Origin: Terebella lapidaria
Lineage: Eukaryota > Annelida > Polychaeta > Terebellida > Terebellidae
Length of the DNA stretch: 64,000 bases
Direction of reading: 5' to 3'
Assembly: GCA_949152475.1 (NCBI GenBank)
Contig: OX424570.1
Location: 3,584,181 to 3,648,180, forward strand
A program made the position numbers and the translations under genes. Below are positions 3,651 to 57,484 of this stretch, in pieces; within the stretch, counting starts at the first letter, position 1, and each line of letters opens with the position of its first letter. The notes below the pieces were generated by a model. It did no database searches. It was not told the origin of the DNA and saw only the letters and a list, made by a program, of their open reading frames with translations.

Positions 3651-3659
3651 TTTCATGAA

Positions 3660-6115: not shown

Positions 6116-6157
6116 ATGCCTGCGAGAGTGGTCAAGGACTGGCTGGCGGAATACAAG
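6116..6157 (+). CDS. FAM126: Hyccin coding exon 1
   Basis: This encodes MPARVVKDWLAEYK, matching the start of hyccin (a short leader, then a VxxWLxEFK-like helix). It ends AAG followed by the donor GTATGT, phase 0. The chosen ATG is the one immediately before the conserved helix. Confidence 0.8.
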
Positions 6158-9139
6158 GTATGTACTATAGATGCCAAATACAAGTAAGTATTATTCATAT
6201 CAAGTTCCTATGGAAGTGACTTGTTTAATATAAGACACTGATAAATCATATTGCCTGGATTTTTAGGTTACCGGACCTATGGTCCGATAACCTATTGGCA
6301 TGGCGTTGCGTCCGTCGTCGTCCGTCGTCGTCGTCGTCGTCGTCCACATTTTTATCTTTTTTGTTTACGGGCGAATTTTTCTGAAATTTTGCACAAAAAT
6401 ACTTAAAAATAATTCAAGAAGGAGGTATTTTTAGGTTACCGGACCTATGGTCCGATAACCTATTGGCATGGCGTTGCGTCCGTCGTCCGTCGTCCGTCGT
6501 CGTCCGTCGTCCACATTTTTATCTTTTTTGTTTACGGGCGAATTTTTCTGAAATTTTGCACAAAAATACTTAAAAATAATTCGAGAAGGAGGTATTTTTT
6601 AGTTTTTTGATTTTCGCATTTTTTTCAAAATGGCGGCCGTTTTCGACGAAAAATGCCTGATTTTGGACTTTGGCGGCCATTTTCTCAAAATCTGTTCAGT
6701 AACTTTTTTTCTTTTTGATACATAAGACTCCTCGTATGTACTTCTATGATGTCTATAAATTTCGTTGCGCTTGAATCGCTTGAAGTGGGCCATTTTGGCC
6801 CAAACTCGGCCCGAATGGGACTTTCCCATGTTAAATTCTCCTATGCTTTATAATGGGACACATTAAAGCCTAATATCTCACTTAATATTGAGATTAGAGA
6901 CTAGGAATCAATTGTGGACATATAGGAAATGATATATGCTGAATATTGTCGTGACCTTGAATTTGACCTCTGACCTTGGTTTCAAGGTCAGAGCGACCGT
7001 TTTCGTCGAAAAATGGCCAATTTTGGACTTCGACGGTCGTTTTCTCAAAATCTGTTCAGTAACTTTTTTTCTTATTGATGCATGACACTCCTCCTATGTA
7101 CCCCTGTGACATGTATAAATTTCGTTGCCCTTGAATCGCTCGAAGTGGACCATTTTGGGCCCAAACTCAGCCCAAATGGGACTTTCCCATGTTAAATTCT
7201 CCTATGCTTTATAATGGGACACATTAAGCCTAATATCTCACTTAATATTGAAATTAGAGACTAGGAATGAATTGTGGACATATAGGAAATGATATATGCT
7301 GAATATTCTCGTGACCTTGAATTTGACTTTTGACCTCATTTTCAAGGTCACAGGACAAAATGGCTAATTTCTCGCTTATTATCGACTTTACAGCTTAGGA
7401 ATCAGTTGTGAACATATAGGAAATGATATATGCTGAATATTCTTGTGACCTTGAATTTGACCTTTGACCTCATTTTCAAGGTCACATGACAAAATGGCTA
7501 ATATCTCGCTTATTATCGACCTTACAGTTTAGGAATCAATTGTGAACATATAGGAAATGATATATGCTGAAAATTCTCGTGACCTTGAATTTGACCTTTG
7601 ACCTCATTTTCAAGGTCACAGGACAAAATGGCTAATATCTCGCTTATTATCGACTTTACAGCTTAGGAATCAGTTGTGAACATATAGGAAATGATATATG
7701 CTGAATATTCTCGTGACCTTGAATTTGACCTTTGACCTCATTTTCAAGGTCACATGACAAAATGGCTAATATCTCGCTTATTATCGACTTTACAGTTTAG
7801 GAATCAATTGTGAACATATAGGAAATGATATATGCTGAATATTCTCATGACCTTGAATTTGACCTTTGACCTCATTTTCAAGGTCACAGGACAAATTGGC
7901 CAATATCTTGCTTATTAGCGACTTTACAGCTTAGGAATCAATTGTGAACATATAGGAAATGATATATGCTGAAACTTCTTGTGACCTTGAATTTGACCTT
8001 TGACCTCATTTTCAAGGTCACAGGACAAAATGGCCAATATCTTGCTTATCAGCGACTTAACAGCTTAGAAATCAATTGTGAACATATAGGAAATGATATA
8101 TGCTGAAAATTCTCATGACCTTGAATTTGACCTTTGACCTCATTTTGAAGGTCACATGACAAAATGGCTAAAATCTCGCTTATTATCGACTTTACAGCTT
8201 AGGAATCAATTGTGAACATATAGGAAATGATATACGCAGAATATTCTCATGACCTTGAATTTGACCTTTGACCTCATTTCCAAGGTCACAGGACAAAATT
8301 GCTGGTATCTCGCTTATTATCGACTTTACAGCTTAGGAATCAATTGTGAACATATGAGTAATGATATATGTTGAATATTCTCGTGACCTTGAATTTGACC
8401 TTTGACCTCATTTTCAAGGTCACAGGACAAAATGGCCAATATCTTGCTTATTAGCGACTTTACAGCTTAGGAATCAATTGTGAACATATAGGAAATGATA
8501 TATGCTGAAAATGCTCGAGACCTTGAATTTGACCTTTGACCTATTTTCAAGGTCACAGGACAAAATGGCCAATATCTTGCTTATTAGCGACTTTACAGCT
8601 TAGGAATTAATTGTGAACATATAGGAAATGATATATGCTGAAAATTCTCATGATCTTGAATTTGACCTTTGACCTCATTTTCAAGGTCAACAGGACAAAA
8701 TGGCTAATATCTTGCTTATTATCGACTTTACAGCTTAGGAATCAATTGTGAACATATAGGAAATGATATATTCTGAATATTTTAATGATAGGAAATAGGA
8801 AATGATGTATGCTGAATAGTTTGGTGATCTAGAATTTAACCTTTGATCCCAATTTCACGGTTAGAGATATGGCGATTTAAGTGGTCACCTTGAATTTGAC
8901 TTTCAACTTTCTCGGCTTAACTCTGTATATTTCTCCGGTAACCTTACTAGCCCATTGGGCTAATTTTTAGTTTTTTGATTTTCGCATTTTTTTCAAAATG
9001 GCGGCCATTTTCGACGAAAAATGCCTGATTTTGGACTTTGGCGGCCATTTTCTCAAAATCTGTTCAGTAACTTTTTAGGTTACCGGACCTATGGTCCGAT
9101 AACCTACTGCCGTGGCGTTGCGTCCGTCGTCCGTCCGTC

Positions 9140-9170
<31 letters not shown>

Positions 9171-12100
9171 TGTCCACATTTTTATCTTTAAAGTTTACCG
9201 TCCAATCTTTCTGAAAATTTGGGAAAAGATACCTTAAAATAGTTTGAGAAGGAGGTATTTTTTAGTTTTTAGGTTACCGGACCTATGGTCCGATAACCTA
9301 TTGCCATGGCGTTGCGTCCGGCGTCCGTCCGTCCGTCGTCGTCGTCGGCGTCGTCATCGTCCGTCCACATTTTTATCTTTAAAGTTTACGGTCCAATCTT
9401 TCTGAAAATTTGGGAAAAGATACCTTAAAATAATTTGAGAAGGAGGTATTTTTTAGTTTTTTAGGTTACCGGACCTATGGTCCGATAACCTATTGGCATG
9501 GCGTTGCGTCCGTCGTCCGTCGTCCGTCGTCCGTCGTCGTCCGTCGGCGTCCGTCGTCGTCCGTCGTCGTCCGTCGTCGTCGTCGTCCACATTTTTATCT
9601 TTTTTGTTTACAGGCGAATATTTCTGAAATTTTGCACGAAAATACTTAAAAATAATTCAAGAAGGAGATATTTTTTAGTTTTTTGATTTTCGCATTTTTT
9701 TCAAAATGGCGGCCGTTTTCGACGAAAAATGCCTGATTTTGGACTTTGGCGGCCATTTTCTCAAAATCTGTTCAGTAACTTTTTTTCTTTTTGATAAATA
9801 ACACTCCTCATATGTACTCCTATGATGTCTATAAATTTCGTTGCGCTTGAATCGCTCGAAGTGGTCCATTTTGGCCCAAACTCGGCTCAAATGGGACTTT
9901 CCCATGTTAAATTCTCCTATGCTTTATAATGGGACACATTATGCCTAATATCTCACTTGATATTGAGATTAGAGACTAGGAGTCAATTGTGGACCTATAG
10001 GAAATGATATATGCTGAATATTCTCGTGACCTTGAATTTGACCTCTGACCTCACTTTCAAGGTCAGAGCACAAAATGGCTTATATCTCGCTTATTATCGA
10101 CTCTACAGCTTAGGAATCAATTGTGGACATATAGGAAATGATATATTCTGAATATTCTCGTGACCTTGAATTTGACTTCTGACCTCAGTTTCAAGGTCAG
10201 AGCACAAAATGGCTTATATCTCGCTTATTATCGACTCTACAGCTTAGGAATCAATTGTGGACATATAGGAAATGATATATGCTGAATATTCTGATGACCT
10301 TGAATTTGACCTTCGACCTCATTTTCAAGGTCACAGGACAAAATGGCTAATATCTCGCTTGTTATCGACTTTACAGCTTAGCAATCAATTATGAACATAT
10401 AGGAAATGATATATGCAGATTATTGTCATGACCTTGAATTTGACCTTTGACCTCATTTTCAAGGTCACAGGACAAAATGGCTAATATCTCACTTATTATC
10501 GATTTTACAGCTTAGGAATCAATTGTGGACATATAGGAAATGATATATGCTGAATATTCTCGTGACCTTGAACTTGACCTCTGACCTCATTTCTAAGGTC
10601 CAAGGACAAACTGGCTCATATCTTGCTCCTCTATTGACTGTATGGCTTGGGAATCAATTGTGGACATGATATACATGATATAGAAAATGATATACACTGA
10701 ATATTTTGATGACCTTGAATTTGACCTTTGCCCCTTCATTTTCAAGGCTACAGCATAAAATTGCTAATCTCTCTCTGATTATTGAACTTACAGCTTAGCA
10801 ATCAACTGTGGACATGATATATGCTTAATGTTATATATGCTGAATATTCTCTTGACCTTGAATTCAACCAGTGACCTGGCTAATACCTAAAATATTAAAC
10901 ATTGTCCGGTAACCTATCTTTGGCCCTTGGCCTAATTTTGATTTTTTAATTTTTTTCAAAATGGCGGCCGTTTTCGTCGAAAAACGGTCAAATTTGAACT
11001 TTGGCGGCCATTTTCTCAAAAACTGTCTGATCAGATTTGAGATTTTTGTTTCAAAAGATTCTTGTTATGTACCTCTGTGAAGTGTATAAGTTTGGTTGCC
11101 CTTGAATCGCCGGTCTGCATATGGCGGCCATTTTGAATTTTCGACGGGTCGACGAAAAAAACATTTTTCGGCCCAAATCGCATTACTATCCATTTTGGGC
11201 CATTTCTAGGCAAAAAAAATTTTTCACCCTTTGAAAAAAATTTTGGACTTAGAAAATTTTCGTCACTTTTTTCCTTCATAATGGGAGCTGCCAGGAATGT
11301 ACTCATAGAACGCTTGAAGATAGAGCTTAGAAATTGGCACTTTCAAATGGGAAGTCATATATGGCGACTTGTGTGGTGACCTTGAATTTGACCTTTGATG
11401 ACCTTGAAAGGTCAAAACAGCCATTTTGGGGTAAAAAAATTCCCAGATTTGCCTCTACACATGAAATGCTTGTAGATAGAGCTTAAGTTTGCATTATGAG
11501 CATATAGGAAGTCATATATGGAACAACTGATGATGACCTTGACCTTGACCTCAGATGACCTTGAGTGCTAAATGTCCGATGTGAAATGTGTAAATAAGCC
11601 ACCGAGGCTTAAACACTTGCACATACAGGTTAGGATTGTGTATAAGCTTACAAGAAGTCATGTATTTATAGCACATCTCTTGGAGACCTTGAATTTGACT
11701 TTATATATGACCTTGAAATCCAAATCTCACAACCTTGCCTGACCTGACATGTGTAAATTGTTGATAGAGCTTATATGTTTGTATTATGAACATATATGAA
11801 GTCATATGCAGCATACCTAATGGTGATATTGCAGTTCACGAAGATGATCTTGATTGGAAAATCTCAAAGTCATATGTCACTTGCAATGCTTAAAGTGATG
11901 TTGGCAGGAAAACTATTTTTTCCAAATCAATTACATATATGCCTGTGGTCTCAGAATAATAGGTTACAAAACAAACTTTGCTTGATCAAATGGATAAATC
12001 AAGCATATGACAGTACTAGCAGCCGCTTTTTAGGTTACCGGACCTATGGTCCGATAACCTATTGGCATGGCGTTGCGTCCGTCGTCCGGCGTCCGTCGTC

Positions 12101-15100
12101 GTCCGTCGTCGTCGTCGTCGTCGTCCACATTTTTATCTTTTTTGTTTACGGGCGAATTTTTCTGAAAATTTGCACAAAAATACTTAAAAATAATTCAAGA
12201 AGGAGGTATTTTTTAGTTTTTTGATTTTCACATTTTTTTCAAAATGGCGGCCGTTTTCGATGAAAAATGCCTGATTTTGGACTTTGGCGGCCATTTTCTC
12301 AAAATCTGTTCAGTAACTTTTTTTCTTTTTGATACATAACACTCCTCATATGTACTCCTATGATGTCTATGAATTTCGTTGCGCTTGAATCGCTCGAAGT
12401 GGGCCATTTTGGGCCCAAACTCGGCCCAAATTGGACTTTCCCATGTTAAATTCTCCTATGCTTTATAATGGGACACATTAAAGCCTAATATCTCACTTAA
12501 TATTGAGATTAGAGACTAGGAATCAATTGTGGACATATAGGAAATGATATATGCTGAATATTCTCGTGACCTTGAATTTGACCTTTGACCTCATTTTCAA
12601 GGTCACAGGACAAAATGACTAATATCTCGCTTATTATCGACTTTACAGCTTAGGAATCAATTGTGAACATATAGGAAATGATATATGCTGAATATTCTCG
12701 TGACCTTGAATTTGACCTTTGACATCATTTTCAAGGTCACATGACAAAATGGCTAATATCTCGCTTATTATCGACTTTACAGGTTAGGAATCAATTGTGA
12801 ACATATAGGAAATGATATATGCTGAATATTTTCGTGACCTTGAATTTGACCTTTGACCTCATTTCCAAGGTCACAGGACAAAATTGCTAATATCTCGCTT
12901 ATTATCGACTTTACAGCTTAGGAATCAATTGTGAACATATAGGAAATGATATATGCTGAATATTCTCGTGACCTTGAATTTGACCTTTGACCTCATTTTC
13001 AAGGTCACAGGACAAAATGGCCAATATCTTGCTTATTAGCGACTTTACAGCTTAGGAATCAATTGTGAACATATAGGAAATGATATATGCTGAAAATTCT
13101 CATGACCCTGAATTTGACCTTTGATTTCATTTTCAAGGTCACATGACAAAATGGCTAATATCTTGCTTATTATCGACTTTACAGCTTAGGAATCAATTGT
13201 GAACATATAGGAAATGATATATGCTGAAAATTCTCATGACCCTGAATTTGACCTTTGACCCCATTTTCAAGGTCACATGACAAAATGGCTAATATCTTGC
13301 TTATTATCGACTTTACAGCTTAGGAATCAATTGTGAACATATAGGAAATGATATATGCTGAATATTCTCATGACCTTGAATTTGACCTTTGACCTCATTT
13401 CCAAGGTCACAGGACAAAATTGCTAATATCTCGCTTATTATCGACTTTACAGCTTAGGAATCAATTGTGAACATATAGGAAATGATATATGCTGAATATT
13501 CTCGTGACCTTGAATTTGACCTTTGACCTCATTTTCAAGGTCACAGGACAAAATGGCGAATATCTTGCTTGTTAGCGACTTTACAGCTTAGGAATCAATT
13601 GTGAACATATTGGAAATGATATATGCTGAATATTCTAGTGACCTTGAATTTGACTTTTGACCTCATTTTCAAGGTCAACAGGACAAAATGGCTAATATCT
13701 TGCTTATTATCGACTTTACAGCTTAGGAATCAATTGTGAACATATAGGAAATGATATATGCTGAATATTCTAGTGACCTTGAATTTGACTTTTGACCTCA
13801 TTTTCAAGGTCAACAGGACAAAATGGCTAATATCTTGCTTATTATCGACTTTACAGCTTAGGAATCAATTGTGAACATATAGGAAATGATATATTCTGAA
13901 TATTTTAATGATATTGAATTTGACCTTTGACCTAAATTTCAAGGTCAGTCATTTTATTTTCAAAGTCAGATTACAAAATGGCTTATATCGCGCTTATTAT
14001 CAAATTTACAGCTTAGGGGTCCATAGTGAACATATAGGAAATGATGTATGCTGAATAGTTTGGTGATCTAGAATTTAACCTGTGATCCCATTTTCACGGT
14101 TAGAGATATGGCGATTTCAGTGGTCACCTTGAATTTGACCTTCAACTTTCTCGGCTTAACTCTGTATATTTCTCCGGTAACCTTTCTAGCCCATTGGGCT
14201 AATTTTTTTGTTTTGTGTGCCACTCAGAGTTACCTCTGACTTAACCTAGTTCACGCTCGATTGGCTCGAACATACCCGAGTAAGCTGGAATCGTACTGTG
14301 TCACGGTATACAAAGCACCGAGAATGGCGGTAATGTAAACAAACTCAAAATATCTCCACCAGAAGCTCGAAACGAAATCTATTAGAAAGGGGCGTCTGTT
14401 TGGGCATACAAGTGCAGATATATAACTGTTATGTTTTCTTCGTTCGATCAGAAAGATATGGAAAAATCCATATCTTACTGCCAATATCACTTTAAAGCCA
14501 AAATTGTCCGGTAACCTATCTTAGCCCTTGGGCTAATTTTTGATTTTTCAATTTTTTTCAAAATGGCGGCCGTTTTCGTCGAAAAACGGTCAATTTTGAA
14601 CTTTGGCGGCCATTTTCTCAAAAACTGTCTGATCAGATTTGAGATTTTTGTTCCAAAAGATTCTCAATATGTACCTCTGTGATGTGTATAAGTTTGGTTG
14701 CCCTTGAATCGCCGGCCTGCGTATGGCGGCCATTTTGAATTTTCGACGGGTCGGCGAAAAAAAAAATTTCGGCCCAAATTGCATTACTATACATTTTGGG
14801 CCATTTCTAGACAAAAAAAAAATTTTCACCCTTTGAAAAAAATTTTGGACTTAGAAAATTTTCGACACTTTTTTCCTTCATAATGGGAGCTGCCAGGATT
14901 GTACTCACAGAACGCTTGAAGATAGAGTTTCGAAATTGGCTTATTATCAAATTTACAGCTTAGGGGTCCATAGTGAACATATAGGAAATGATGTATGCTG
15001 AATAGTTTGGTGATCTAGAATTTAACCTGTGATCCCATTTTCACGGTTAGAGATATGGCGATTTCAGTGGTCACCTTGAATTTGACCTTCAACTTTCTCG

Positions 15101-18100
15101 GCTTAACTCTGTATATTTCTCCGGTAACCTTTCTAGCCCATTGGGCTAATTTTTTTGTTTTGTGTGCCACTCAGAGTTACCTCTGACTTAACCTAGTTCA
15201 CGCTCGATTGGCTCGAACATACCCGAGTAAGCTGGAATCGTACTGTGTCACGGTATACAAAGCACCGAGAATGGCGGTAATGTAAACAAACTCAAAATAT
15301 CTCCACCAGAAGCTCGAAACGAAATCTATTAGAAAGGGGCGTCTGTTTGGGCATACAAGTGCAGATATATAACTGTTATGTTTTCTTCGTTCGATCAGAA
15401 AGATATGGAAAAATCCATATCTTACTGCCAATATCACTTTAAAGCCAAAATTGTCCGGTAACCTATCTTAGCCCTTGGGCTAATTTTTGATTTTTCAATT
15501 TTTTTCAAAATGGCGGCCGTTTTCGTCGAAAAACGGTCAATTTTGAACTTTGGCGGCCATTTTCTCAAAAACTGTCTGATCAGATTTGAGATTTTTGTTC
15601 CAAAAGATTCTCAATATGTACCTCTGTGATGTGTATAAGTTTGGTTGCCCTTGAATCGCCGGCCTGCGTATGGCGGCCATTTTGAATTTTCGACGGGTCG
15701 GCGAAAAAAAAAATTTCGGCCCAAATTGCATTACTATACATTTTGGGCCATTTCTAGACAAAAAAAAAATTTTCACCCTTTGAAAAAAATTTTGGACTTA
15801 GAAAATTTTCGACACTTTTTTCCTTCATAATGGGAGCTGCCAGGATTGTACTCACAGAACGCTTGAAGATAGAGTTTCGAAATTGGCACTTTCAAATGGG
15901 AAGTCATATATGGCGACTTGTGTGGTGACCTTGAATTTGACCTTGGATGACCTTGAAAGGTCAAAACAGCCATTTTTTGGTCGAAAAATGCCCAAATTTG
16001 CACCTTGTCTGTCTTTTCTCGAAAACTGTTTGATCAGTTTTGAGATTTTTGTATCAAAAGATTCCCCTTATGTACCTTTATGATGTGTATAAGTTTTGTT
16101 GCCCTTGAATCGCCGGTCTCCATGTGGCGGCCATTTTGAATTTTTGACGAGTCGCCGAAAAAAAAATTGTTTCGCCCCAAATCGCATTACTATCCATTTT
16201 GGGCCATTTCTAGGCAAACAAAATTTTTTCACCCTTTGAAAAATTTTTTGGACTTCGAAAATTGTCGGCACTGTTTTCCTCCATAATGGGAGCTGTCAGG
16301 ACTGTACTCATAGAACACTTGAAGATACAGCTTAGAAATTGGCACTTTCAAATGGGAAGTCATATATGGCGACTTGTGTGGTGACCTTGAATTTGACCTT
16401 GGATGACCTTGAAAGGTCAAAACAGCCATTTTAGGGTAAAAAAATGCCCAGATTTGCCTCTATAGATGAAATGCTTGCAGATAGAGCTCATGTTTGCATT
16501 ATGAACATATAGCAAGACATATATGGCACAACTAATGATGACCTTGAACTTGACGTCAGATGACCTTGAGTGCCAAATGTTTGACTCGTAATGTGTAAAT
16601 TGACCTGAGCGGCCTAAACGATTCCACCCAGATATATCTTTGTATTATGAACATATGGAATATCAAATGCCGCACACATACATGTAATGGTGACATCGAA
16701 GTTCACACGAATAACCTTGATTGGTAAATCTCAAGGTCATTTGTTCACACTGCGAACCTTGATTGGTAAATCTCAAGGTCTGTTACCTGCCAATGCTGCC
16801 ATGGCCAAACCAAAATTGTCCGGTAACCTGTCTTAGCCTTTGGGCTAATTTTTAGGTTACCGGACCTTTGGTCCGATAACCTATTGCCGTGGCGTTGCGT
16901 CCGTCGTCCGTCGTCCGTCCGTCCGTCCACATTTTTATCATTAAAGTTTACAGTCGAATATTTCTGAAATTTTGCACAAAAATACCTAAAAATATTTCCA
17001 GGAAAGGTTTTTTTTTAGTTTTTTGATTTTCGCATTTTTTTCAAAATGGCGGCTGTTTTCGTCGAAAAATGGCCAATTTTGGACTTTGACGGTTGTTTTC
17101 CCAAAATCTGTTCAGTAACTTTTTTTCTTATTGATGCATGACACTCCTCCTATGTACCCCTGTGACATGTATAAATTTCGTTGCCCTTGAATCGCTCGAA
17201 GTGGGCCATTTTGGGCCCAAACTCGGCCCAAATGGGACTTTCCCATGTTAAATTCTCCTATGCTTTATAATGGGACACATTAAGCCTAATATCTCACTTA
17301 AAATTGAAATTAGAGACTAAGAATCAATTGTGGACATATAGGAAATTATATATGCTGAATATTCTTGTGACCTTGAATTTGACCTCTGACCTCGGTTTCA
17401 AGGTCAGAGTGGCCGTTTTCGTCTAAAAATGGCCAATTTTGGACTTTGACGGTCGTTTTCTCAAAATCTGTTCAGTAACTTTTTTTCTTATTGATGCATA
17501 ACACTCCTCATATGTACCCCTGTGACATGCATAAATTTCGTTGCGCTTGAATCGCTCGAAGTTGGCCATTTTGGGCCCAAACTCGGCCCAAATGGGACTT
17601 TCCCATGTTAAACACTCAGCCTAATATCTCACTTAATATTGAGATTAGAGACTAGGAGTCAATTGTGGACATATAGGAAATGATATATGCTGGATATTCT
17701 CGTGACCTTGAATTTGACCTCTGACCTCGGTTTCAAGGTCAGAGCGGCCATTTTCGTGAAAAATTGGCCAATTTTGGACTTTGTCGGTCCTTTTCTCAAA
17801 ATCTGTTCAGTAACTTTTGTTTCTTATTGATGCATGACACTCCTCATATGTACCCCTCTGACATGAATAAATTTCGTTGCTTTTGAATCACTTAGAAAGG
17901 GCCATTTTGGGCCCAAACACGGCCCAAATGGGACTTGCCATGTTAAATTCTCCTATGCTTTATAATGGGACACATTAAGCCTAATATCTCACTTAATATT
18001 GAGGTTAGAGACTAGGAATCAATTGTGGACATATAGGAAATGATATATGCCGAATATTCTTGTGAACTTGAAGTTGACCTCTGACCTCGGTTTCAAGGTC

Positions 18101-21100
18101 AGAGCACAAAATGGCTAACATCTCATTCATTATCGACTTTACAGCTTAGGAATCAATTGTGGACATATAGGAAATGATATATGCTGAATATTCTGATAAC
18201 CTTGAATTTGACCTTTGACCTAATTTTCAAGGTCACAGGACAAAATGGCTAATATCTCACTTATTATCGATTTTACAGGTTAGGGATTAATTGTGGACAT
18301 ATAGGAAATGATATATGCTGAATATTCTCGTGACCTCGAATTTGACCTCTGACCTCAGTTTCAAGGTCAGAGCACAAAATGGCTAATATCTCGCTTATTA
18401 TCGACTTTACAGCTTAGGAATCAATTGTGGACATATAGGAAATGATATATGCCGAATATTCTGATAACCTTGAATTTGACCTTTGACCTCATTTTCAAGG
18501 ACACAGGACAATGGCTAATATCTCACTTATTATCGATGTCACAGCTTAGGGATCAATTTTGGGCATATAGGAAATGATATATGCCGAATATTCTTGTGAC
18601 CTTGAAGTTGACCTCTGACCTCGGTTTCAAGGTCAGAGCACAAACTGGCTAATATCTCGTTCATTATCGACTTTACAGCTTTGGAATCAATTGTGGACAT
18701 ATAGGAAATGATATATGCTGAATATTCTGATAACCTTAAATTTGACCTTTGACCTCATTTTCAAGGTCACAGGACAAAATGGCTAATATCTCACTTATTA
18801 TCGATTTTACAGCTTAGGGATTAATTGTGGACATATAGGAAATGATATATGCTGAATATTCTCGTGACCTTGAATTTGACCTCTGACTTCAGTTTCAAGG
18901 TCAGAGCACAAAATGGCTAATATCTCGCTTATTATCGACTTTACAGCATAGGAATCAATTGTGGACATTAGGAAATGATATATGTCGAATATTCTGATAA
19001 CCTTGAATTTGACCTTTGACCTCATTTTCAAGGACACCGGACAAAATGGCTAATATCTCACTTATTATCGATTTTACAGCTAAGGGATCAATTGTGGGCA
19101 TATAGGAAATGATATATGCTGAATATTCTTGTGACCTTGAATTTGACCTCTGACCTCGGTTTCAAGGTCAGAGTACAAAATGTCTAATATCGCGCTTATT
19201 ATCGACTTTACAGCTTAGGAATCAATTGTGGACATATAGGAAATGATAAATGCCAAATATTCTGATGACGTTGGTTTTGACCTTTGACCTCTTTATCAAA
19301 GTCACATGACAAAATGGCTAATATCTCACTTATTATCGATTTTACAACTAAGGGATCAATTGTGGACATATAGGAAATGATATATGCTGAATATTATCAT
19401 GATCTTGAATTTGACCTCTGACCTCATTTTCAGGATCACCGGACAAAATGGCTAATATCTCGCTTATTATCGACTTTACAGCTTAGAAATCAGTTGTGGA
19501 CATATAGAAAATGATATATTCTGAACATTGTCATGACCTTGAACTTGACGTTTGACCTCATTTTCAAGGTCACAGGACATAATGGCTAATATCTCGCTTT
19601 TTGTTGACTTTACAGCTTAAGAATCAGTTGTGGACATACTAGAAATGACATATGCCGAATATTATCGTGTCCTTGAATTAACCAATGACCTTATTTTCAA
19701 GGTCACGGGACAAACTACTAATATCTAAAATATGTATTGTCCGGTAACCTTTCTTAGCCCTTGGGCTAATTTTTTTCTTTCTGATACATAAGACTCTTCA
19801 TATGTACTCCTATGACGTCTATAAATTTCGTTGCGCTTGAATAGCTCGAAGTGGGCCATTTTGGCCCAAACTCGGCCCAAATGGGACTTTCCCATGTTAA
19901 ATTCTCCTATGCTTTATAATGGGACACATTATGCCTAATATCTCACTTAATATTGAGATTAGAGACTAGGAATCAATTGTGGACATATAGGAAATGATAT
20001 ATGCTGAATATTCTCGTGACCTTGAATTTGACCTCTGACTTCAGTTTCAAGGTCAGAGCACAAAATGGCTTATATCTGGCTTATTATTGACTCTACAGCT
20101 TAGGAATCAATTGTGGACATATAGGAAATAATATATGCTGAATATTCTCGTGACCTTGAATTTGACCTTCGACCTCATGTTCAAGGTCACAGGACAAAAT
20201 GGCTAATATCTCGCTTGTTATCGACTTTACAGCTTAGCAATCAATTATGAACATATAGGAAATGATATATGCAGATTATTGTCATGACCTTGAATTTGAC
20301 CTTTGACTTCATTTTCAAGGTCACAGGACAAACAGGCAAATATCTTACTTATTATCGATTTTACAGCTTAGGAATCAATTGTGGACATATAGGAAATGAT
20401 ATATGCTGAATATTCTCGTGACCTTGAATTTGACCTCTGACCTCATTTTCAAGGTCCAAGGACAAACTGGCTCATATCTCTATTGACTGTATGGCTTGGG
20501 AATCAATTGTGGACATGATATAGAAAATGATCTACATTGAATATTTTGATGACCTTAAATTTGACCTTTGCCCCTTCATTTTCAAGGCCACAGCACAAAA
20601 TTGCTAATATCTCTCTGATTATTGAATTTACAGCTTAGCAATCAACTGTGGACATGATATATACTTAATGTTATATATGCTGAATATTCTCTTGACCTTG
20701 AATTCAACCAGTGACCTGGCTAACATCTAAAATATTAAACATTGTCCGGTAACCTATCTTCGGCCCTTGGCCTAATTTTTAGGTTACCGGACCTATGGTC
20801 CGATAACCTATTGCCGTCACGTTGCGTCCGTCGTCCGTCCGTCGTCCGGCGTCCCTCGTCCGTCCACATTTTTAGGTTACCGGACCTATGGTCCGATAAC
20901 CTATTGGCATGGCGTTGCGTCCGTCGTCCGGCGTCCGTCGTCTGTCGTCGTCCGTCGTCGTCGTCGTCGTCGTCGTCGTCCACATTTTTATCTTTTTTGT
21001 TTACGGGCGAATTTTTCTGAAATTTTGCACAAAAATACTTAAAAATAATTCAAGGAGGAGGTATTTTTTAGTTTTTTCATTTTCGCTTTTTCTTCAAAAT

Positions 21101-24100
21101 GGCGGCCGTTTTCGACGAAAAAGGCCTGATTTTGGACTTTGGCGGCCATTTTCTCAAAATCTGTTCAGTAACTTTTTTTCTTTTTGATACATAAGACTCG
21201 TCATATGTACTTCTATGATATCTATAAATTTCGTTGCGCTTGAATCGCTCGAAGTGGGCCATTTTGGCCCAAACTCGGCCCAAATGAGACTTTCCCCATG
21301 TTAAATTCTCCTATGCTTTATAATGGGACACATTATGCCTAATATCTCACTTAATATTGATATCAGAGACTAGAAATCAATTGTGGACATATAGGAAATG
21401 ATATATGCTGAATATTCTCGTGACCTTGAATTTGACCTCTGACCTCAGTTTCAAGGTCAGAGCACAAAATGGCTTATATCTCGCTTATTATCGACTCTAC
21501 AGCTTTGGAATCAATTGTGGACATATAGGAAATAATATATGCTGAATATTCTCGAGACCTTGAATTTTGACCTCTGACCTCAGTTTCAAGGTCAGAGCAC
21601 AAAATGGCTTATATCTCGCTTATTATCGACTCTACAGCTTAGGAATCAATTGTGGACATATAGGAAATGATATATGCTGAATATTCTGATGACCTTGAAT
21701 TTGACCTTCGAACTCATTTTCAAGGTCACAAGACAAAATGGCTAATATCTCGCTTGTTATCGTCTTTACAGCTTAGCAATCAATTATGAACATATAGGAA
21801 ATGATATATGCAGATTATTGTCATGACCTTGAATTTGGCCTTTGACCTCATTTTCAAGCTCACAGGACAAAATGGCTAATATCTCACTTATTATTGATTT
21901 TACAGCTTAGGAATCAATTGTGGACATATAGGAAATGATATATGCTGAATATTCTCGTGACCTTGAATTTGACCTCTGACCTCATTTTCAAGGTCCAAGG
22001 ACAAACTGGCTCATATCTAGCTCCTCTATTGATTGTATGGCTTGGGAATCGATTGTGGATATGATATACAAAATGATATACATTGAATATTTTGATGATC
22101 TTGAATTTGACCTTTGCCCCTTCATTTTCAAGGCCACAGCACAAAATTGCTAATATCTCTCTGATTATTGAATTTACAGCTTAGCAATCAACTGTGGACA
22201 TGATATATGCTTAATGTTATATATGCTGAATATTCTCTTGACCTTGAAATCAACCAGTGACCTGGCTAACATCTAAAATATTAAACATTGTCCGGTAACC
22301 TATCTTCGGCCCTTGGCCTAATTTTATCTTTAAAGTTTAAAGGCGGATTTTCCTGAAATTTTGCACAAAGTTGCCTAAAAATATTTCAAGAGGGGGTTAT
22401 TTTTTAGTTTTTTGATTTTCGCATTTTTCTCAAAATGGCGGCCATTTTTGACGAAAAATGGCCAATTTTGGACTTTGGCGGCCATTTTCTCAAAAACTGT
22501 CTGATCAGTTTTGAGATTTTTGTTTCAAAAGATTCCCCTTATGTACCTTTATGGTGTGTATAAGTTTTGTTGCCCTTGAATCGCCGGTCTCCGTGTGGCG
22601 GCCATTTTGAATTTTTGACGGGTTGGCGAAAAAAAATTTATTTGTCCCAAATCGCGTTACTATCCATTTTGGGTCATTTCTAGACAAAAAATTTTTTTTC
22701 ACCCTTTGTAAAAAATTTTGGACTTAGAAAATTTTCGGCACTTTTTTCTTTCATAATGAGAGCTGCAGGGACTGTACTCATAGAACGCTTGAAGATAGAG
22801 CTTAGATAATGGCACTTTCAAATGGAAAGTCATATATGGCGACTTGTGTGGTGACCTTGAATTTGACCTTGGATGACCTTGAAAGGTCAAAACAGCCATT
22901 TTTGGGTCAAGAAATGCTCAAATTTGCACCTGGCCTGTCTTTTCTCGAAAACTGTCTGATCAGTTTTGAGATTATTGTTTCAAAATATTCCCCTTATGTA
23001 CCTTTATGATGTTTATAAGTTTTGTTGCCCTTGAATCGCCAGTCTCCGTGTGGCGGCCATTTTGAATTTTTGACGGGTCGGCGAAAAAAATTTTGTTTGC
23101 CCCAAATCGCGTTACTATTCATTTTGGGTCATTTCTAGACAAAAAAAAAATTTTCACCCTTTGAAAAAAATTTTGGACTTACAAAATTTTCGGCACTTTT
23201 TTCCTTCATAATGGGAGCTGCCAGGACTGTACTCATAGTACGCTTGAAGATAGAGCTTAGATATTGGCACTTTCAAATAGGAAGTCATATATAGCGAGTT
23301 GGGAGGTGACCTTGAATTTGACCTTTGATGACCTTGAAAGGTCAAAACAGCCATTTTTGGGTGAAAAAATGCCCAAATTTGCCTCTACAGATGAAATGTA
23401 TGTAGATAGAGCTTCAGTTTGCATTATGAACATATAGGAAGTCATATATGAAACAACTGATGATGACCTTGATTTTGACCTTGGATGACCTTGAGTGCTA
23501 AATGTCTGACTTGAAATCTTGAAAGTGGCCTCTGAAGCATAAACTTTTGCACATACAGGTTAGGATTGTGTATAAGCCTGTAAAAGGGTCATGTATAAAT
23601 GGGACTTTCCCATGTTAAATTCTCCTATGCTTTATAATGGGACACATTAAAGCCTAATATCTCACTTAATATTGAGATTAGAGACTAGGATTCAATTGTG
23701 GACATATAGGAAATGATATATGCTGAATATTGTCGTGACCTTGAATTTGACCTCTGACCTTGGTTTCAAGGTCAGAGCGGCCTTTTTCTTCGAAAAATGG
23801 CCAATTTTGGACTTCGACGGTCGTTTTCTCAAAATCTGTTCAGTAACTTTTTTTTCTTATTGATGAAAAACACTCCTCATATGTACCCCTGTGACATTAT
23901 AAATTTCGTTGCGCTTGAATCGCTTGAAGTGGGCCATTTTGGGCCCAAACTCGGCCCAAATGTGACTTTCCCATGTTAAATTTTCCTATGCTTTATAATG
24001 GCACACATTAAGCCTAATATCTCACTTAATATTGAAATTAGAGACTAGGAATGAATTGTGGACATATAGGAAATGATATATGCTGAATATTCTCGTGACC

Positions 24101-27100
24101 TTGAATTTGACTTTTGACCTGATTTTCAAGGTCACAGGACAAAATGGCTAATATCTCGCTTATTATCGACTTTACAGCTTAGGAATCAGTTGTGAACATA
24201 TAGGAAATGATATATGCTGAATATTCTTGTGACCTTGAATTTGACCTTTGACCTCATTTTCAAGGTCACATGACAAAATGGCTAATATCTCGCTTATTAT
24301 CGACTTTACAGTTTAGGAATCAATTGTGAACATATGGGAAATGATATATGCTGAATATTTTCGTGACCTTGAATTTGACCTTTGACCTCATTTCCAAGGT
24401 CGCAGGAGAAAATTGCTAATATCTCGCTTATTATCGACTTTACAGCTTAGGAATCAATTGTGAACATATAGGAAATGATATATGCTGAATATTCTCGTGG
24501 CCTTGAATTTGAGCTTTGACCTCATTTTCAAGGTCACAGGACAAAATGGCCAATATCTTGCTTATTAGCGACTTTACAGCTTAGGAATCGATTGTGAACA
24601 TATAGGAAATGATATATGCTGAAAATTCTCGTGACCTTGAATTTGTGCTTTGACCTCATTTTCAAGGTCACAGGACAAAACGGCCAATATCTTGATAATT
24701 AGCGACTTTACAGCTTAGGAATCAATTGTGAACATATAGGAAATGATATATGCTGAAAATTCTCATGACCTTGAATTTGACCTCATTTTCAAGGTCACAT
24801 GACAAAATGGCTAATATGTCGCTTATTATCGACTTTACAGCTTAGGAATCAATTGTGAACATATAGGAAATGATATATGCTGAATATTCTAATGACCTTG
24901 AATTTGACCTTTGGATTTGAAAATTTAACATGGGAAAGTCACATTTGGGCCAAGTTTGGGCCCAAAATGGCCCACTTCAAGCGATTCAAGCGCAACGAAA
25001 TTTATAATGTCACAGGGGTACATATGAGGAGTGTTTTTCATCAATAAGAAAAAAAAGTTACTGAACAGATTTTGAGAAAACGACCGTCGAAGTCCAAAGT
25101 TGCACAAAAATCCACACAAACAAAGATATATTTCAGGTTCAGCATCATGTTCTACCAAAGCCCTTTCTAAAATATTAACTACTATATTGTCTAAAATTAA
25201 ACAGGGTCTCCAAAAGTACTCTGAAACCATCTATTCTAGAAGTGGTATAAACCAAATGTGGATATTAAAAAATTCCAAATCTTTATTGGAATATCTACAT
25301 GCGCACACACTTTCAAAAGTAACGTCTATCAAAACATTTGATTTCTCCACTTTGTACACAACTATACCTCATTCTGAACTGAAATCTCAGCTTAAAAAAC
25401 TAATCAATAATTCATTTTTCTCTAAAAAGGGACAACGTCGGTACCACTATATTGTAGTTAAATATAATACCGCTTATTTTGTTAAAGGCGACTCTGATGC
25501 CCCATACAAATATACTGAAATAGATGTGGTAAATATGGTTAATTTTCTGATTGATAATATTTTTGTGGAATTTGGTGGTCGAATATTTCAACAAACTATT
25601 GGTATTCCCATGGGTACAAACTGTGCACCATTATTGGCAGACCTGTTTTTATACTCATATGAATCAGATTTTATCCAACATTTACAAAGAGGAGGTTCTA
25701 AGAAACTAACATTTATTTTTAATTTCACTTTCCGATACATAGATGATGTATTGTCGCTAAATAATCCCAAGTTTGGTGATTATTTGGATATCATATATCC
25801 TAAGGAACTTGAAATTAAGGATACTACAGAATCCGCTACTTTTTCCAACTATCTAGACCTGAGGTTGGAGATTGATAATGATTCTAACCTGTCAACTAGA
25901 TTATATGACAAACGTGATGATTTCAATTTTTCCATAGTCAATTTCCCTTTTCTAAGCAGCAACATTCCTATGTCACCGGCATATGGTGTGTTTGTTTCTC
26001 AACTTATACGCTATTCCAGAGCTAGTTGCAAATATGAGGACTTTGTCTATCGAAGTGCCCAGCTAGTCTCTAAACTGCTACGACAAGGATATGTTTTACC
26101 AAGACTTATCGCTGCGTTTAAGAAATTCTATGGACGTCATCATGATCTGGTTGATAAATACAGCAAATCCATGTCTGCCATGCAACTAGATCTATTTTCA
26201 TGTTAATTTTGGGGAATTCATGACGGGTGCCACTAGTGGGGCAGGAAATGCTCACTCTTTCCGGAACACCTGATTTCACCTCCTGATGGCCATTTACGGG
26301 GGTTCATGAGTTTCCCTGTCATTTTTGTTTTCTCTCACTTCGTATGCCTGATATGACTTTCTGTCCCCGGACTATGAGATTGGATAACGGACCCTGTTTT
26401 GTTTGCTCGGAATACTTGATACTGGGTATTGATTCCACGTCTTTGACCTCATTTCCAAGGTCACAGGACAAAATTGCTAATATCTCAGTTATTATCGACT
26501 TTACAGCTTAGGAATCAATTGTGAACATATAGGAAATGATATATGCTGAATATTCTCATGACCTTGAATTTGACCTTTGACCTCATTTTCAAGGTCAAAG
26601 GACAAAATGGCCAATATCTTGCTTATTAGCGCCTTTACATCTTAGAAATCAATTGTGAACATATAGGAAATGATATATGCTGAATATTCTAGTGACCTTG
26701 AATTTGACTTTTGACCTCATTTTCAAGGTCAACAGGACAAAATGGCTAATATCTCGCTTATTATCGACTTTACAGCTTAGGAATCAATTATGAACATATA
26801 GGAAATGATATATTCTGAATATTTTAATGATATTGAATTTGACTTTTGACCTAAATTTCAAGGTCAGTCATTTTATTTTCAAAGTCAGATTACAAAATGG
26901 CTTATATCTCGCTTATTATCAAATTTACAGCTTAGGGGTCCATAGTGAACATATAGGAAATGATGTATGCTGAATAGTTTGGTGATCTAGAATTTAACCT
27001 TTGATCCCATTTTCAAGGTTAGAGATATGGCGATTTCAGTGGTCACCTTGAATTGACCTTCAACTTTCTCGGCTTAAATTTGTATATTTCTCAGGTAACC

Positions 27101-48100: not shown

Positions 48101-51100
48101 TTGGTGTTTTCGAACTTAATTTCTCCATAAAATGAAGGCTTAATCCTCATACATGTGTCATTCAGAATACCTACTTCAACTTTGTCAAGTTTAGTTTCAT
48201 AAAGTGATTCCTGCCAATAGCTGTGACACATTTTCAAGCGAAGGGCTGAGATAAAACCTTTACCAGGATAAAACAGTAAAAAAGCACCAAATGAGAAAAT
48301 TTAATAAACCAAATAAAAGCCACATGCTTGCTGCCATTGCGTGTATAAGGTGTTTTTGTATTGTCATACCGACAGCCCCCCAGCCTGGCAACCCTGGCTC
48401 TGACAGAGTCAGCCCTCCTGAAACACCACAGCGAGGAGCATGTCAAGATCACCGTTGGACCACTTCCGCAAGTCGAGCGCATCAACTCACAAAACAGGTT
48501 CGTCCTCGCCAAATATGTGATATATCTCATAAATTGAAATACCGAGAGAAAAATCAAATTCTACCTGTTGATAGAATATCTCTTATATTGAAAATGTGCA
48601 ACTGTGTGATTATGGTTGTCATGACAACCAATTTGCAGGTTGATGACTTTGACGAACATTTTGAACTTATACAACGCAGACATCGGAAATTTGTCGGCTC
48701 GATCTCACCACGCCCTCTGCAAGCTCACTTCCAGGTAATATACGTCTTTATTGACACACATTTCTGCGTAGCTTGAGCTGGTCAATTTCAAATATTTGGT
48801 ATATCATAGTGCTTAATATATCTGGTAAACTCATCAAATCATCATGAGGTCCACCAATGTTTTAAACGTCTCCAACAGGGTCTTAATTAAATCATTTCTG
48901 TAAAATCTCTACTGAGTTGATCCTTGACATGAACGATAGGGAAGACAGCAGTTTTAATTTAGCTGAATAAATACTTTGGATTAATCCAATTAAAATATTT
49001 GATAAAATAGAAAATATTCTCCAGTGGATTATCCACTGTCTTGTTTATTCAGTTGGAGAGAGAAATTCCAGATAAATTGATAACTCTATACTGTAGTATA
49101 ATATGCCATGTTTTCCCTTTCGGATATTTCATGGAATATGGTTGGGATTATTCAAAGGTTGAACCATGTTTGCCAAACAATCCACAGAAATCAGCTATCT
49201 GATTACATAATAGGATTAGAACCCAATCCTTACTTGACCTTGGCTGTCCAATCAGCGATCACCCCCCCCCTCCCCCACCTAACACTTACTACCTGTAAGG
49301 GTAGCCAAATTCTTGCGCAATGCTCAACTGCTCGAGTGTGGGCTGAATATCTATTGGTAATTTCTTCGTTTCCTACCAGTTTTCCCTCAATCCCATGTAT
49401 CATGGACTTGTAACTGCCTTGAATCGATGCAGAAATTCATCGCAACTTTATCAGTGAAGATTTCTGTATTGCCAAGCAGTAAACACCAAAGTACAGGTGC
49501 AATGGTTTATGTGTGGTTCAGGAATGCACACAGCTCCGTACACTTTTTATAACAGACATTTCAGGCATAACAATTTTTTTTCTGAAATCACTGACTGCGT
49601 CTTTATGACCATTGATGAAAAGTTCCAATAAAAAGTTTATGCCCTAATCAGTGAAACTATTTCAAATAGATTTTATATCGCAATACTGGCATCAAAGATA
49701 AAATACTTTACGCTAAAGACTTGCGTGGGGCACCGATTGATTAAGATATCAATAAAATATCGAAGATTTGACATTCTTGATGATAACATTGATAACAGTA
49801 TTCATGCTGCCTTCAAGAATTTACAGTCTGACTTCTCATACCTGTGTTGATACATTTACGAAGAGCTGTTTGTTCATCAGTGTTTGAATTGAATTGTCTT
49901 TGCAAATGACTCACTGCCAGAAATATCCAAATTTCAAGATAATAATACCATTTACCGTTAAACAATCTCTCAATATTTGTTTCACTATTCTATGTTTCAA
50001 TATTTCTTCTTCTCTAAGTCTGTTAGTCTCAGGCTGTGCACAATAATAAATGAAATTTAATCATCTCAACAGCATAGCTTGATACTAGCAAATTTCTAAA
50101 ATCAGTGATGTGTAAAACATGGAAAAACAGTATGAGAATTCAAGTAAATCGAGTTAAATCCTTTTCTTTACATGTTAATACATATATACATGAGCCTAAA
50201 TTGTCATATTTCCTTCCCGACAGAGTGTGTAAGAGTGGCTTTGACAACCTGACTGACAATGAGAACTCCCCATCAAGCCTCGGGGATTCCGGATCCAGCT
50301 CTAACCTGCGGAGTCGCCGCGGAATTCAGTTCCGGAATGACCCACGGATCCCCCTCAGCTCCGCGTTCCTTGTGGAGCTACTCAATGGAGTCTACTTCAC
50401 CATGTAAGTGGCCGTGTTCAAAGTGATATTTTTGGATCAATGCATTTTGGTAAAAAGTATTTGGGTATACTAGTTAGTATTCAAGTATGGGAATTTAAAA
50501 AATTAGCCCAATGGGCTAGTAAGGTTACCGGAGAAATATACAGAGTTAAGCCGAGAAAGTTGAAAGTCAAATTCAAGGTGACCACTGAAATCGCCATATC
50601 TCTAACCGTGAAAATGGGATCAAAGGTTAAATTCTAGATCACCAAACTATTCAGCATACATCATTTCCTATATGTTCACTATGGACCCCTAAGCTGTAAA
50701 TTTGATAATAAGCGAGATATAAGCCATTTCGTAATCTGACTTTGAAAATAAAATGACTGACCTTGAAATTTAGGTCAGAGGTCAAATTCAATATCATTAA
50801 AATATTCAGAATATATCATTTCCTATATGTTCACAATTGATTCCTAAGCTGTAAAGTCGATAATAAGCGAGATATAAGCCATTTCGTAATCTGACTTTGA
50901 AAATAAAATGACTGACCTTGAAATTTAGGTCAAAGGTCAAATTCAATATCATTAAAATATTCAGAATATATCATTTCCTATATGTTCACAATTGATTCCT
51001 AAGCTGTAAAGTCGATAATAAGCAAGATATTAGCCATTTTGTCCTGTTGACCTTGAAAATGAGGTCAAAGGTCAAATTCAAGGTCATGAGAATTTTCAGC

Positions 51101-54100
51101 ATTTATCATTTCCTATATGTTCACAATTAATTCCTAAGCTGTAAAGTCGCTAATAAGCAAGATATTGGCCATTTTGTCCTGTGACCTTGAAAATAAGTCA
51201 AAGGTCAAATTCAAGGTCACGAGGATTTTCAGCATATATCATTTCCTATATGTTCACAATTGATTCCTAAGCTGTAAAGTCGCTAATAAGCAAGATATTG
51301 GCCATTTTGTCCTGTGACCTTGGAAATAGGTCAAAGGTCAAATTCAAGGTCACGAGCATTTTCAGCATATATCATTTCCTATATGTTCACAATTGATTCC
51401 TAAGCTGTAAAGTCGCTAATAAGCAAGATACTAGCCATTTTGTCCGGTGACCTTGAAAATGAGGTCAAAGGTCAAATTCAAGGTCACGAGAATTTTCAGC
51501 ATATATCATTTCCTATATGTTCACAATTGATTCCTAAGCTGTAAAGTCGCTAATAAGCAAGATATTGGCCAATTTGTCCTGTGACCTTGAAAATGAGGTC
51601 AAAGGTCAAATTCAAGGTCATGAGAATATTCAGCATATATCATTTCCTATATGTTCACAATTGATGCCTAAGCTGTAAAGTCGATAATAAGCGAGATATT
51701 AGCAATTTTGTCCTGTGACCTTGGAAATGAGGTCAGGGTCAAATTCAAGGTCATGAAAATATTCAGCATATCTCATTTCTTATATGTTCACAATTGATTC
51801 CTAAACTGTAAAGTCGATAATAAGCGAGATATTAGCCATTTTGTCATGTGACCTTGAAAATGAGGTCAAAGGTCAAATTCAAGGTCACGAGAATATTCAG
51901 CATATATCATTTCTTATATGTTCACAATTGATTCCTAAGCTGTAAAGTCGATAATAAGCGAGATATTAGCCATTTTGTCCTGTGACCTTGAAAATGAGGT
52001 CAAAGGTCAAATTCAAGGTCACGAGAATTTTCAGCATATATCATTTCCTATATGTTCACAATCGATTCCTCAGCTGTAAAGTCGCTAATAAGCAAGATAT
52101 TGGCCATTTTGTCCTGTGACCTTGAAAATGAGGTCAAAGCTCAAATTCAAGGCCACGAGAATATTCAGCATATATCATTTCCTCTATGTTCACAATTGAT
52201 TCCTAAGCTGTAAAGTCGATAATAAGCGAGATATTAGCAATTTTGTCCTGCGACCTTGGAAATGAGGTCAAAGGTCAAATTCAAGGTCACGAAAATATTC
52301 AGCATATATCATTTCCTATATGTTCACAATTGATTCCTAAACTGTAAAGTCGATAATAAGTGAGATATTAGCCATTTTGTCAAGTGACTTTGAAAATGAG
52401 GTCAAAGGTCAAATTCAAGGTCACAAGAATATTCAGCATATATCATTTCCTATATGTTCACAACTAATTCCTAAGCTGTAAAGTCGATAATAAGCGAGAT
52501 ATTAGCCATTTTGTAATATGACCTTGAAAATGAGGTCAAAGGTCAAATTCAAGGTCACAAGAATATTCAGCATATATCATTTCCTATATGTTCACAATTG
52601 ATTCCTAAGCTGTAAAGTCGATAATAAGCGAGATATTAGCAATTTTGTCCTGCGACCTTGGAAATGAGGTCAAAGGTCAAATTCAAGGTCACGAAAATAT
52701 TCAGCATATATCATTTCCTATTTGTTCACAATTGATTCCTAAACTGTAAAGTCGATAATAAGCGAGATATTAGCCATTTTGTCATGTGACCTGTATTCAG
52801 CATATATCATTTCCTATATGTCCACAATTCATTCCTAGTCTCTAATTTCAATATTAAGTGAGATATTAGGCTTAATGTGTCCCATTATAAAGCATAGGAG
52901 AATTTAACATGGGAAAGTCCCATTTGGGCTGAGTTTGGGCCCAAAATGGCCCACTTCGAGCGATTCAAGGGCAACGAAATTTATACATGTCACAGGGGTA
53001 CATAGGAGGAGTGTCATGCATCAATAAGAAAAAAAGTTACTGAACAGATTTTGAGAAAACCACCGTCGAAGTCCAAAATTGGCCATTTTTCGACGAAAAC
53101 GGCCGCTCTGACCTTGAAACCAAGGTCAAAGGTCAAATTCAAGGTCACGACAATATTCAGCATATATCATTTCCTATATGTCCACAATTGATTCCTAGTC
53201 TCTAATCTCAATATTAAGTGAGATATTAGGCTTAAAAGGTACCATTATAAAGCATAGGAGAATTTAACATGGGAAAGTCCCATTTGGGCCGAGTTTGGGC
53301 CAAAATGGCCCACTTCGAGCGATTCAAGCGCAACGAAATTTATAGACATCATAGAAGTACATATGAGGAGTCTTATGTATCAAAGAGAAAAAAAGTTACT
53401 GAACAGATTTTGAGAAAATGGCCGCCAAAGTCCAAACTCAGGCCTTTTTCGTCGAAAACGGTCGCCATTTTGAAGAAAAAGCGAAAATCAAAAAACTAAA
53501 AAATACCTCCTTCTTGAATTATTTTTAAGTATTTTTCTGCAAAATTTCAGAAAAATTCGCCCGTAAACAAAAAAGATAAAAATGTGGACGACGACGACGA
53601 CGACGACGACGGACGACGACGGACGACGGACGACGGACGCAACGCCATGCCAATAGGTTATCGGACCATAGGTCCGGTAACCTAATTATGTTATTTGTGG
53701 TGAAAGTTCTACTCTTTATTCGACATTTGTTCGATTCATATTTATTTAATATATTTATTTAATCCTTGAAGACAGTTACATGTGCATGTATCATAATGCA
53801 CTTCCATCATAACGTTCAAATGTTCAGTCACTGATTGTTGTTGCAGGTTCAATGGTCAAGCGAGAGAAGGTATCAAGGCCTTGGAAGACATTCACCAGAG
53901 GGCGCTGTATGAACTGTATCCCGATGTACTCCTGGTGAGTGAGCCTATCATTGGAATTCAAACATTTGTATGCTAAACTGTGATAAAGTATACTTTAAAG
54001 TATACTTTGTATTAACAGCTTGATAAATTAGTTTATAATTTCCAATATATATCTTGGTTATTAATTGTGATATTTCTGATGTTAGTTTCAAAGTGTTGTT

Positions 54101-57393: not shown

Positions 57394-57484
57394 TCCTATG
57401 GCTGCTCTACCACATTGGATTTGCCTTGCTGACATAACTTTGCGAATATTTTAGTTTTCATCGTCTTACGAACACTTTCTTTGC

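Follow-up and report, generated by a model that had tools for sequence, protein, structure and literature searches.

A nuclear-receptor-like box in hyccin introns of Terebella lapidaria is probably a passenger of an abundant non-autonomous Helentron

Main

Three kinds of mobile element are the closest described counterparts of the tandem arrays reported here: the HINEs, which are non-autonomous Helentrons; the pearl elements of bivalves; and Alu, which is a retroelement. The HINE plan has been published in passages on Cg_HINE of Crassostrea gigas (PMC7492417) and on DINE-1/HINE (PMC4067079). The BIV160, Cg170 and HindIII repeat families are described as sharing two conserved segments, with the remainder differing (PMC5139131). 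For Alu repeats, tests of HNF4 binding and the proposal of a sink role appear in passages of PMC3252374, and retinoic acid receptor sites of the DR2 type (direct repeat with a two-base spacer) are described in PMC1785376. Neither receptor sites carried by transposons nor the notion of a sink is thus new, both having been published for Alu and HNF4. Here we analyse a stretch of 64,000 nucleotides from the annelid Terebella lapidaria (assembly GCA_949152475.1, contig OX424570.1, positions 3,584,181 to 3,648,180; hereafter the window), in which an initial annotation had described dense arrays of nuclear-receptor motifs in introns of hyccin and had proposed that they might act as receptor sinks or movable enhancers. 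We put the probability at about 0.75 that a very abundant HINE has these arrays as its central tandem repeats and that the receptor-like box within them decays as a passenger after insertion.

Element anatomy

Judged by its organization, the element is a fresh member of the HINEs of the already known kind. A copy runs from a run of T through AGGTTACCGGACC, a three-base loop, GGTCCGATAACCT, a CGTCCGT microsatellite, a spacer, an array of 134-bp units and CCGGTAACCT to a palindrome, for example TAGCCCATTGGGCTA. The first two named words correspond to the 5′ subterminal inverted repeat (subTIR; 11–13 bp) and, after three bases, the inverted repeat (IR) that are characteristic of HINEs, and this pair was found at 6265, 6433, 9077, 9271, 9463, 12032, 16854, 20781 and 20874 on the plus strand and at 53683-53655 on the minus strand. 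The microsatellite that follows the 5′ end in HINEs is represented by CGTCCG/CGTCCGTCGT arrays, the central tandem repeats by the 134-bp unit (101 matches in the window) and the 3′ subTIR with its palindrome by 11 places in the window. Some copies are nested or lack one end.

6265..8962, plus strand: HINE copy with nested 5′ ends (subTIR and IR at 6265 and 6433), CGTCCGT microsatellites and array at 6870-8865; its right end has the 3′ subTIR at 8934 and palindrome TAGCCCATTGGGCTA at 8948
9077..10932, plus strand: HINE copy with nested 5′ ends at 9077, 9271 and 9463, array at 9945-10878, 3′ subTIR at 10905 and palindrome at 10922
10935..11760, plus strand: diverged relative, a module of the 456-bp family (TGACCTTGAATTTGACCTTTGATGACCTTGAAAGGTCA)
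12032..14201, plus strand: HINE copy with 5′ subTIR and IR, microsatellite, array at 12485-14105, 3′ subTIR at 14173 and palindrome at 14187
15520..16847, plus strand: diverged 455-456-bp family with the box, 3′ subTIR at 16819 and palindrome at 16834
16854..19768, plus strand: HINE copy with 5′ subTIR and IR, array at 17286-19715, 3′ subTIR at 19740 and palindrome at 19755
19935..20772, plus strand: 134-bp array of another copy, array at 19935-20720, 3′ subTIR at 20745 and palindrome at 20762
20874..22318, plus strand: HINE copy with 5′ subTIR and IR (an outer one at 20781), microsatellite, array at 21339-22266, 3′ subTIR at 22291 and palindrome at 22308
22485..23490, plus strand: diverged 455-bp family with the box
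23654..24914, plus strand: 134-bp array, copy without a recognized 3′ end
26440..27119, plus strand: 134-bp array with 155-bp variants, palindrome TAGCCCATTGGGCTA at 27105
50504..53683, minus strand: complete HINE copy in a hyccin intron, 5′ subTIR at 53683-53671, IR at 53667-53655 and array at 53229-50601; its right end has the 3′ subTIR at 50522 and palindrome at 50504

Stems of at least six are present at 21 of 53 candidate right ends, a set that includes reversed left ends, compared with 109 of 2,000 random stretches. Inspection of the junctions of raw end matches, where a HINE would be expected to sit between T and T, showed T runs after many palindromes; among 58 raw matches, 28 have TTTTT ahead of the 5′ end, a count in which overlapping loci enter repeatedly and most of the other matches are the same palindrome on the opposite strand. 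Genome-wide, the Helitron_like_N profile gave 150 scored matches among 234 candidates, many in open frames of more than 2,000 amino acids, so that the genome is rich in genes for Helitron-type replication proteins (Rep/helicase). No Rfam family reached its gathering score in the window, and a pattern search of viral_contigs found no relatives. At 14173-15830, the open frames, 3′ subTIRs and palindromes repeat at a shift of 947 bases, as do the palindromes at 14187 and 15134; an element junction seems to have been duplicated in tandem here.

The receptor-like box

In the consensus of the 134-bp unit, TGACCTTGA, ATT, TGACCTTTGACCT, CATTT and TCAAGGTCA follow one another and form a 39-bp box, in which we take the two outer motifs to be extended half-sites.

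12969..13007, plus strand: 39-bp receptor-like box, example, reading TGACCTTGA ATT TGACCTTTGACCT CATTT TCAAGGTCA

The perfect direct repeat with a one-base spacer (DR1), as defined in a passage of PMC3252374, and the extended half-sites both match consensus nuclear-receptor sites. Exact counts in the window were 79 on the plus and 63 on the minus strand for TGACCTTGA, 25 and 13 for TGACCTTTGACCT, and 15 and 1 for TGACCTCTGACCT. Perfect TGACCTnTGACCT occurs 54 times against 0.00 expected from dinucleotide shuffles, and TCAAGGTCA 142 times on both strands against 0.82, a comparison that counts copies of one ancestral unit and so shows repetition, not many independent origins. All but one of the perfect TGACCTnTGACCT sites (53 of 54) fall within matches to the 134-bp unit. 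The lone perfect DR1, at 54806-54818, lies outside unit matches in a coding-like stretch past the last detected hyccin exon.

Intactness was scored in the 85 window units that cover at least 115 of the 134 columns. Exact TGACCTTGA is present in 59 and exact TCAAGGTCA in 60; the DR1 is intact in 53, with a T spacer in 37 and a C spacer in 16. All three motifs are exact together in 27. The order that was initially described is that of the consensus, within 39 bp, whereas the statement that most units contain the whole set was too strong. A C spacer is indeed common, as had been said of a short subfamily, although that subfamily's labels (H1, H5 and H9) are undefined and the comparison is accordingly a loose one. 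Across the unit alignment described below, the spacer is the most variable DR1 position (20% changed); among 193 intact pairs it is T in 142, C in 47, G in 1 and a gap in 3.

The element extends far beyond this locus. The genome searched comprises 762 Mb in 438 contigs and contains 31,314 exact T-spacer boxes when the gap is flexible and 42,922 exact boxes with any spacer when it is fixed, and words from the head of the element, which lies outside the repeat, match at 13,801 places with at most one mismatch. Unit sequence was found in 4 of 16 random 10-kb stretches (2,154 of 160,000 bases). This abundance indicates that the load at hyccin is a local cluster of a genome-wide element. Together, the motif counts, unit copies and genome-wide boxes bear out the earlier description of consensus nuclear-receptor sites on a dispersed element family, and as a sequence observation it was largely right.

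Constraint on inserted copies

Of 511 unit matches, the alignment retains those spanning 115 or more of the 134 columns, 325 in all. They represent 34 loci: the window, two random loci, 28 head-word loci and three found through or near motif matches (L005, L008 and L009), of which L008 overlaps L009 with both retained. The head-word loci derive from 30 places, among 100 listed, in the first 5.3 Mb of contig C1 that carry a 25-base word outside the repeat; from these, L032 was excluded and L036 held no unit of sufficient length. Loci that repeat others (L001–L004, L006, L007 and L032) and the random loci except L010, L018 and L022 had been set aside in advance.

It had been proposed that the same motifs keep returning while the remainder of the unit drifts. 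Within the 134-bp family this is not supported: rare variants and those private to one locus strike the motif no less often than other positions. In non-CpG columns, the rate of rare variants (below 3%) is 2.02% for the motif and 1.72% for the other columns, and 109 of 117 circular shifts of the motif mask gave a value as low or lower. The corresponding ratio is 1.17 (0.97–1.33, bootstrap over the 34 loci); it becomes 1.16 (0.97–1.32) without L008, 1.25 (1.02–1.47) without the three motif-found loci and 1.24 (1.07–1.48) when the window is removed as well. Locus-private variants number 0.73 per motif column and 0.72 per other column (0.73–0.87 versus 0.71–0.76 in subsets), and common variants are present in 14 of 30 motif columns and 36 of 82 others. 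The best-kept 13-mers of the unit are TATAGGAAATGAT and its neighbours. Exact survival of the DR1 13-mer is exceeded by 54 of 87 CpG-free windows, and that of TGACCTTGA and TCAAGGTCA by 21 and 31 of 96 windows, respectively. Over 22 specified bases, the 42,922 exact boxes in the genome compare with 43,176 exact copies of a motif-free 22-mer from the same unit.

The rare variants and the 22-mer survival show that inserted copies are under no detectable constraint. The sequence constraint by which a response element might be recognized is not seen in the rare and private variants, and conservation of the copies does not support the regulatory reading. The initial annotation had itself named mutation of the motif as fast as that of the remaining unit as part of what would speak against its proposal; at a ratio of 1.17 this is, as far as the sequence allows, what was found.

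Evidence from other repeat families and alternative explanations

Several observations weigh against a box that is a passenger and nothing else. When all variants are pooled, the motif differs from the consensus less than the other columns do (4.3% versus 6.3%), with 418 base-standardized motif differences observed against 717 expected. An equally low all-variant ratio is reached by 12 of 117 shifted masks (8–12 in locus subsets), and the lower pooled difference is due to variants of higher frequency, that is, to differences between subfamilies. If a minority of copies were weakly constrained, these averages would miss it. No partner Helentron was tied to these ends, the ends of the Helitron_like_N matches not having been read. 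Finally, the box is the best-kept part between diverged repeat families, and an otherwise dissimilar 147-bp repeat bears a DR1.

The first of these two family-level observations concerns the 455/456-bp family, which is related to the 134-bp unit outside the box (under two settings, the score is equalled by 3 and 0 of 300 shuffles for 134-Y1 and by 0 and 0 of 300 for 134-Y2). The stretch best kept between the two is the TGACCTTGAATTTGACCTT box. Nine subunits were compared, after exclusion of six of 15 rows that were opposite-strand matches inside 134-bp arrays with a box identity of 14–16 of 22. In these nine, the 22-bp box TGACCTTGAATTTGACCTTTGA is kept at 181 of 198 positions, above the other column blocks (146 of 187 in columns 49–69, 98 of 168 in columns 20–48, 42 of 117 in columns 70–82 and 55 of 107 in columns 105–134), and in seven no other 22-column window outdoes it. 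Where subunits were read letter by letter, the DR1 lacked its second half-site at the expected position, which indicates that DR1 is not the kept feature. At this deeper level, the claimed recurrence of the motif therefore holds between diverged families, but for TGACCTTGAATTTGACCTT and not for DR1.

The second concerns a tandem repeat found at five loci, whose consensus of 20 units contains TGACCTTTGACCTTGACCT.

Loci L005, L009, L010, L018 and L041: 147-bp tandem repeat with a DR1

Outside the box, this repeat has no detectable similarity to the 134-bp unit, for which 30 and 250 of 300 shuffles score as high, or to subunits of the 456-bp family, for which 78 to 263 of 300 do. Its word TTTGACCTTGACCT has 15,855 matches in the genome, compared with 10 for the reversed word. 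Separately, with the unit masked, TGACCTTGACC was counted eight times in 160 kb of random DNA against 0.06 expected under a trinucleotide model; four of the occurrences lie in the 147-bp family and four outside it, and the excess, which extends beyond the tandem families seen, was noted at L010, L019, L023 and L025. The box kept between families and the DR1 in the 147-bp repeat point to some element-level use of the box, and the box shared between families is the part that deserves follow-up.

Such a use could mean that the box does work for the element itself, aiding its transcription, replication or amplification, for example through a germ-line nuclear receptor, while inserted copies decay freely. 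We regard this as unlikely, although the retention of the box in the nine subunits, its presence in the dissimilar 147-bp repeat and the abundance of TTTGACCTTGACCT are all in its favour. The nine subunits are mutually related repeats, and the match to one of them, at 11623, is weak (E 0.029); because the alignments are local, the best-kept part is favoured in this comparison, and columns 49–69 are well kept too. Moreover, 16 tandem clusters with a period of 60–300 were seen across the window and 55 loci (16 random loci included), of which 2 carry a half-site, and gene conversion between neighbouring arrays could spread the box. More speculative still is the proposal that the AGGTCA-type box is a conserved working module of Helentron satellites, which repeat families of otherwise different sequence retain or re-acquire because a bound receptor (for example, ERR/FTZ-F1 or HNF4/COUP) aids amplification; were this true, receptor sites would have been strewn over the host genome in their tens of thousands, to decay one by one.

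A function for the host, with the arrays as receptor sinks or movable enhancers, seems to us very improbable. Exact consensus sites are present in very large numbers, the genome has nuclear-receptor genes (65 exon-level zf-C4 matches), and HNF4 binding to Alu and the sink proposed there provide a precedent. Against this stand the lack of detectable constraint on inserted copies, the position of hyccin as one locus among thousands, and the richness of CpG columns in TG and CA (in columns 10–11, CG 157, CA 77 and TG 76), a pattern suggesting that the copies are methylated in the germ line. If the arrays did bind receptors, the 42,922 exact boxes would make up an extensive store of sites, on which the idea of receptor networks built by transposons could be examined beyond mammals. 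We give least credence to a box kept as a DNA hairpin for recombination or rolling-circle replication, with TGACCTTGAA pairing with TTCAAGGTCA across an internal loop: the consensus does contain a ten-base perfect inverted repeat, but of 3,219 cells 232 are changed on one side and 7 on both (3.8 expected by independence), 3 of the latter still being paired, and with hardly any compensatory change this role for the inverted extended half-sites was rejected.

The reading that we prefer is that of a passenger on a HINE. The 134-bp unit has, by descent, a 39-bp box of four AGGTCA-type half-sites: a perfect DR1 with an extended half-site on either side, the two in inverted orientation. Helentron enzymes, together with tandem amplification, would have spread this box to tens of thousands of places, the hyccin introns included, by transposition. 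After insertion the box decays at about the same rate as the remaining unit, which argues that the copies are not kept for receptor binding. What the sequence shows is the anatomy of the element, its abundance, inserted copies under no detectable constraint, and genes of the Helitron Rep/helicase type and for nuclear receptors. We infer that the genome's Helentrons move the HINE copies, and nuclear receptors may be able to bind the box, given its match to their consensus sites. On inserted copies the box would be a passenger, and it is possibly an element part kept between families. The result mainly shows that a striking density of sites can come from copying alone.

The hyccin locus and other elements in the window

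Hyccin exons were located by matches to Pfam PF09790 and by a vertebrate probe.

31853..31996 (about), plus strand: hyccin exon, PF09790 positions 30-77
48367-48528 (about), plus strand: hyccin exon, PF09790
53842..53943 (about), plus strand: hyccin exon, PF09790, 3′ of the minus-strand element
54149-54307 (about), plus strand: hyccin exon, PF09790

The probe adds matches at 47798 (E 3e-4) and 50303 (E 6e-4), together with weak ones at 31541 (E 0.15), 34930 (E 0.5) and 6128-6160 (VVKDWLAEYKV; E 6.2). Matches to the 134-bp unit lie at 6870-27023 on the plus strand and at 50601-53229 on the minus strand, with none in between. The second array sits between the hyccin exons at 50303-50401 and 53848. 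The first arrays probably lie in intron 1, a placement that follows from taking the weak match at 6128-6160 as exon 1. The arrays are thus in hyccin introns, as had been annotated; of the intron numbers given, 1 and 8, the former leans on that weak match and the latter on exons that were not seen.

Other mobile elements are also present. In a second modular family, tandem units of 168, 132 and 121 bp always follow one another in this order, at 2171-4610, 27251-29432 and 37430-39788; its units contain no AGGTCA half-sites. A 798-amino-acid open frame at 59703-62099 on the plus strand encodes reverse transcriptase and RNase H domains and is, from its motifs, what we take to be DIRS-like; a 1,843-amino-acid frame that overlaps it, at 57455-62986, has no Pfam match. 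A further open frame of 376 amino acids, with a reverse transcriptase domain, adjoins a 134-bp array at 25076-26206 on the plus strand.

Comparison with described elements

Literature text searches with words of the repeat unit returned nothing except TTGACCTTTGACCT, for one unrelated paper on a PPAR/SREBP decoy oligonucleotide. A search for Helitron, transcription factor binding, bivalve and nuclear receptor found no work that combines them, and nuclear receptor, satellite DNA and AGGTCA came together in one paper, a chromatin review. As far as the Alu passages go, Alu is similar in that a non-autonomous transposon spreads nuclear-receptor consensus sites; it differs in that the sites here stand in tandem arrays, several to a unit, and in that binding was tested in Alu whereas here it is predicted from sequence. 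The BIV160, Cg170 and HindIII satellites of bivalve pearl elements (PMC5139131) are likewise satellite-like repeats within mobile elements and, by their published description, may resemble the present families in that two segments are kept while the rest differs. The DR1-containing box sets the present unit apart from Cg_HINE (PMC7492417) and DINE-1 (PMC4067079), in that the passages on those elements make no mention of one. With both, the present element shares, as those passages describe them, a 5′ subTIR with a nearby inverted repeat, a microsatellite of the GTCC/CGTCC type, an array of satellite-like repeats, a 3′ subTIR with a palindrome and, apparently, T-rich junctions.

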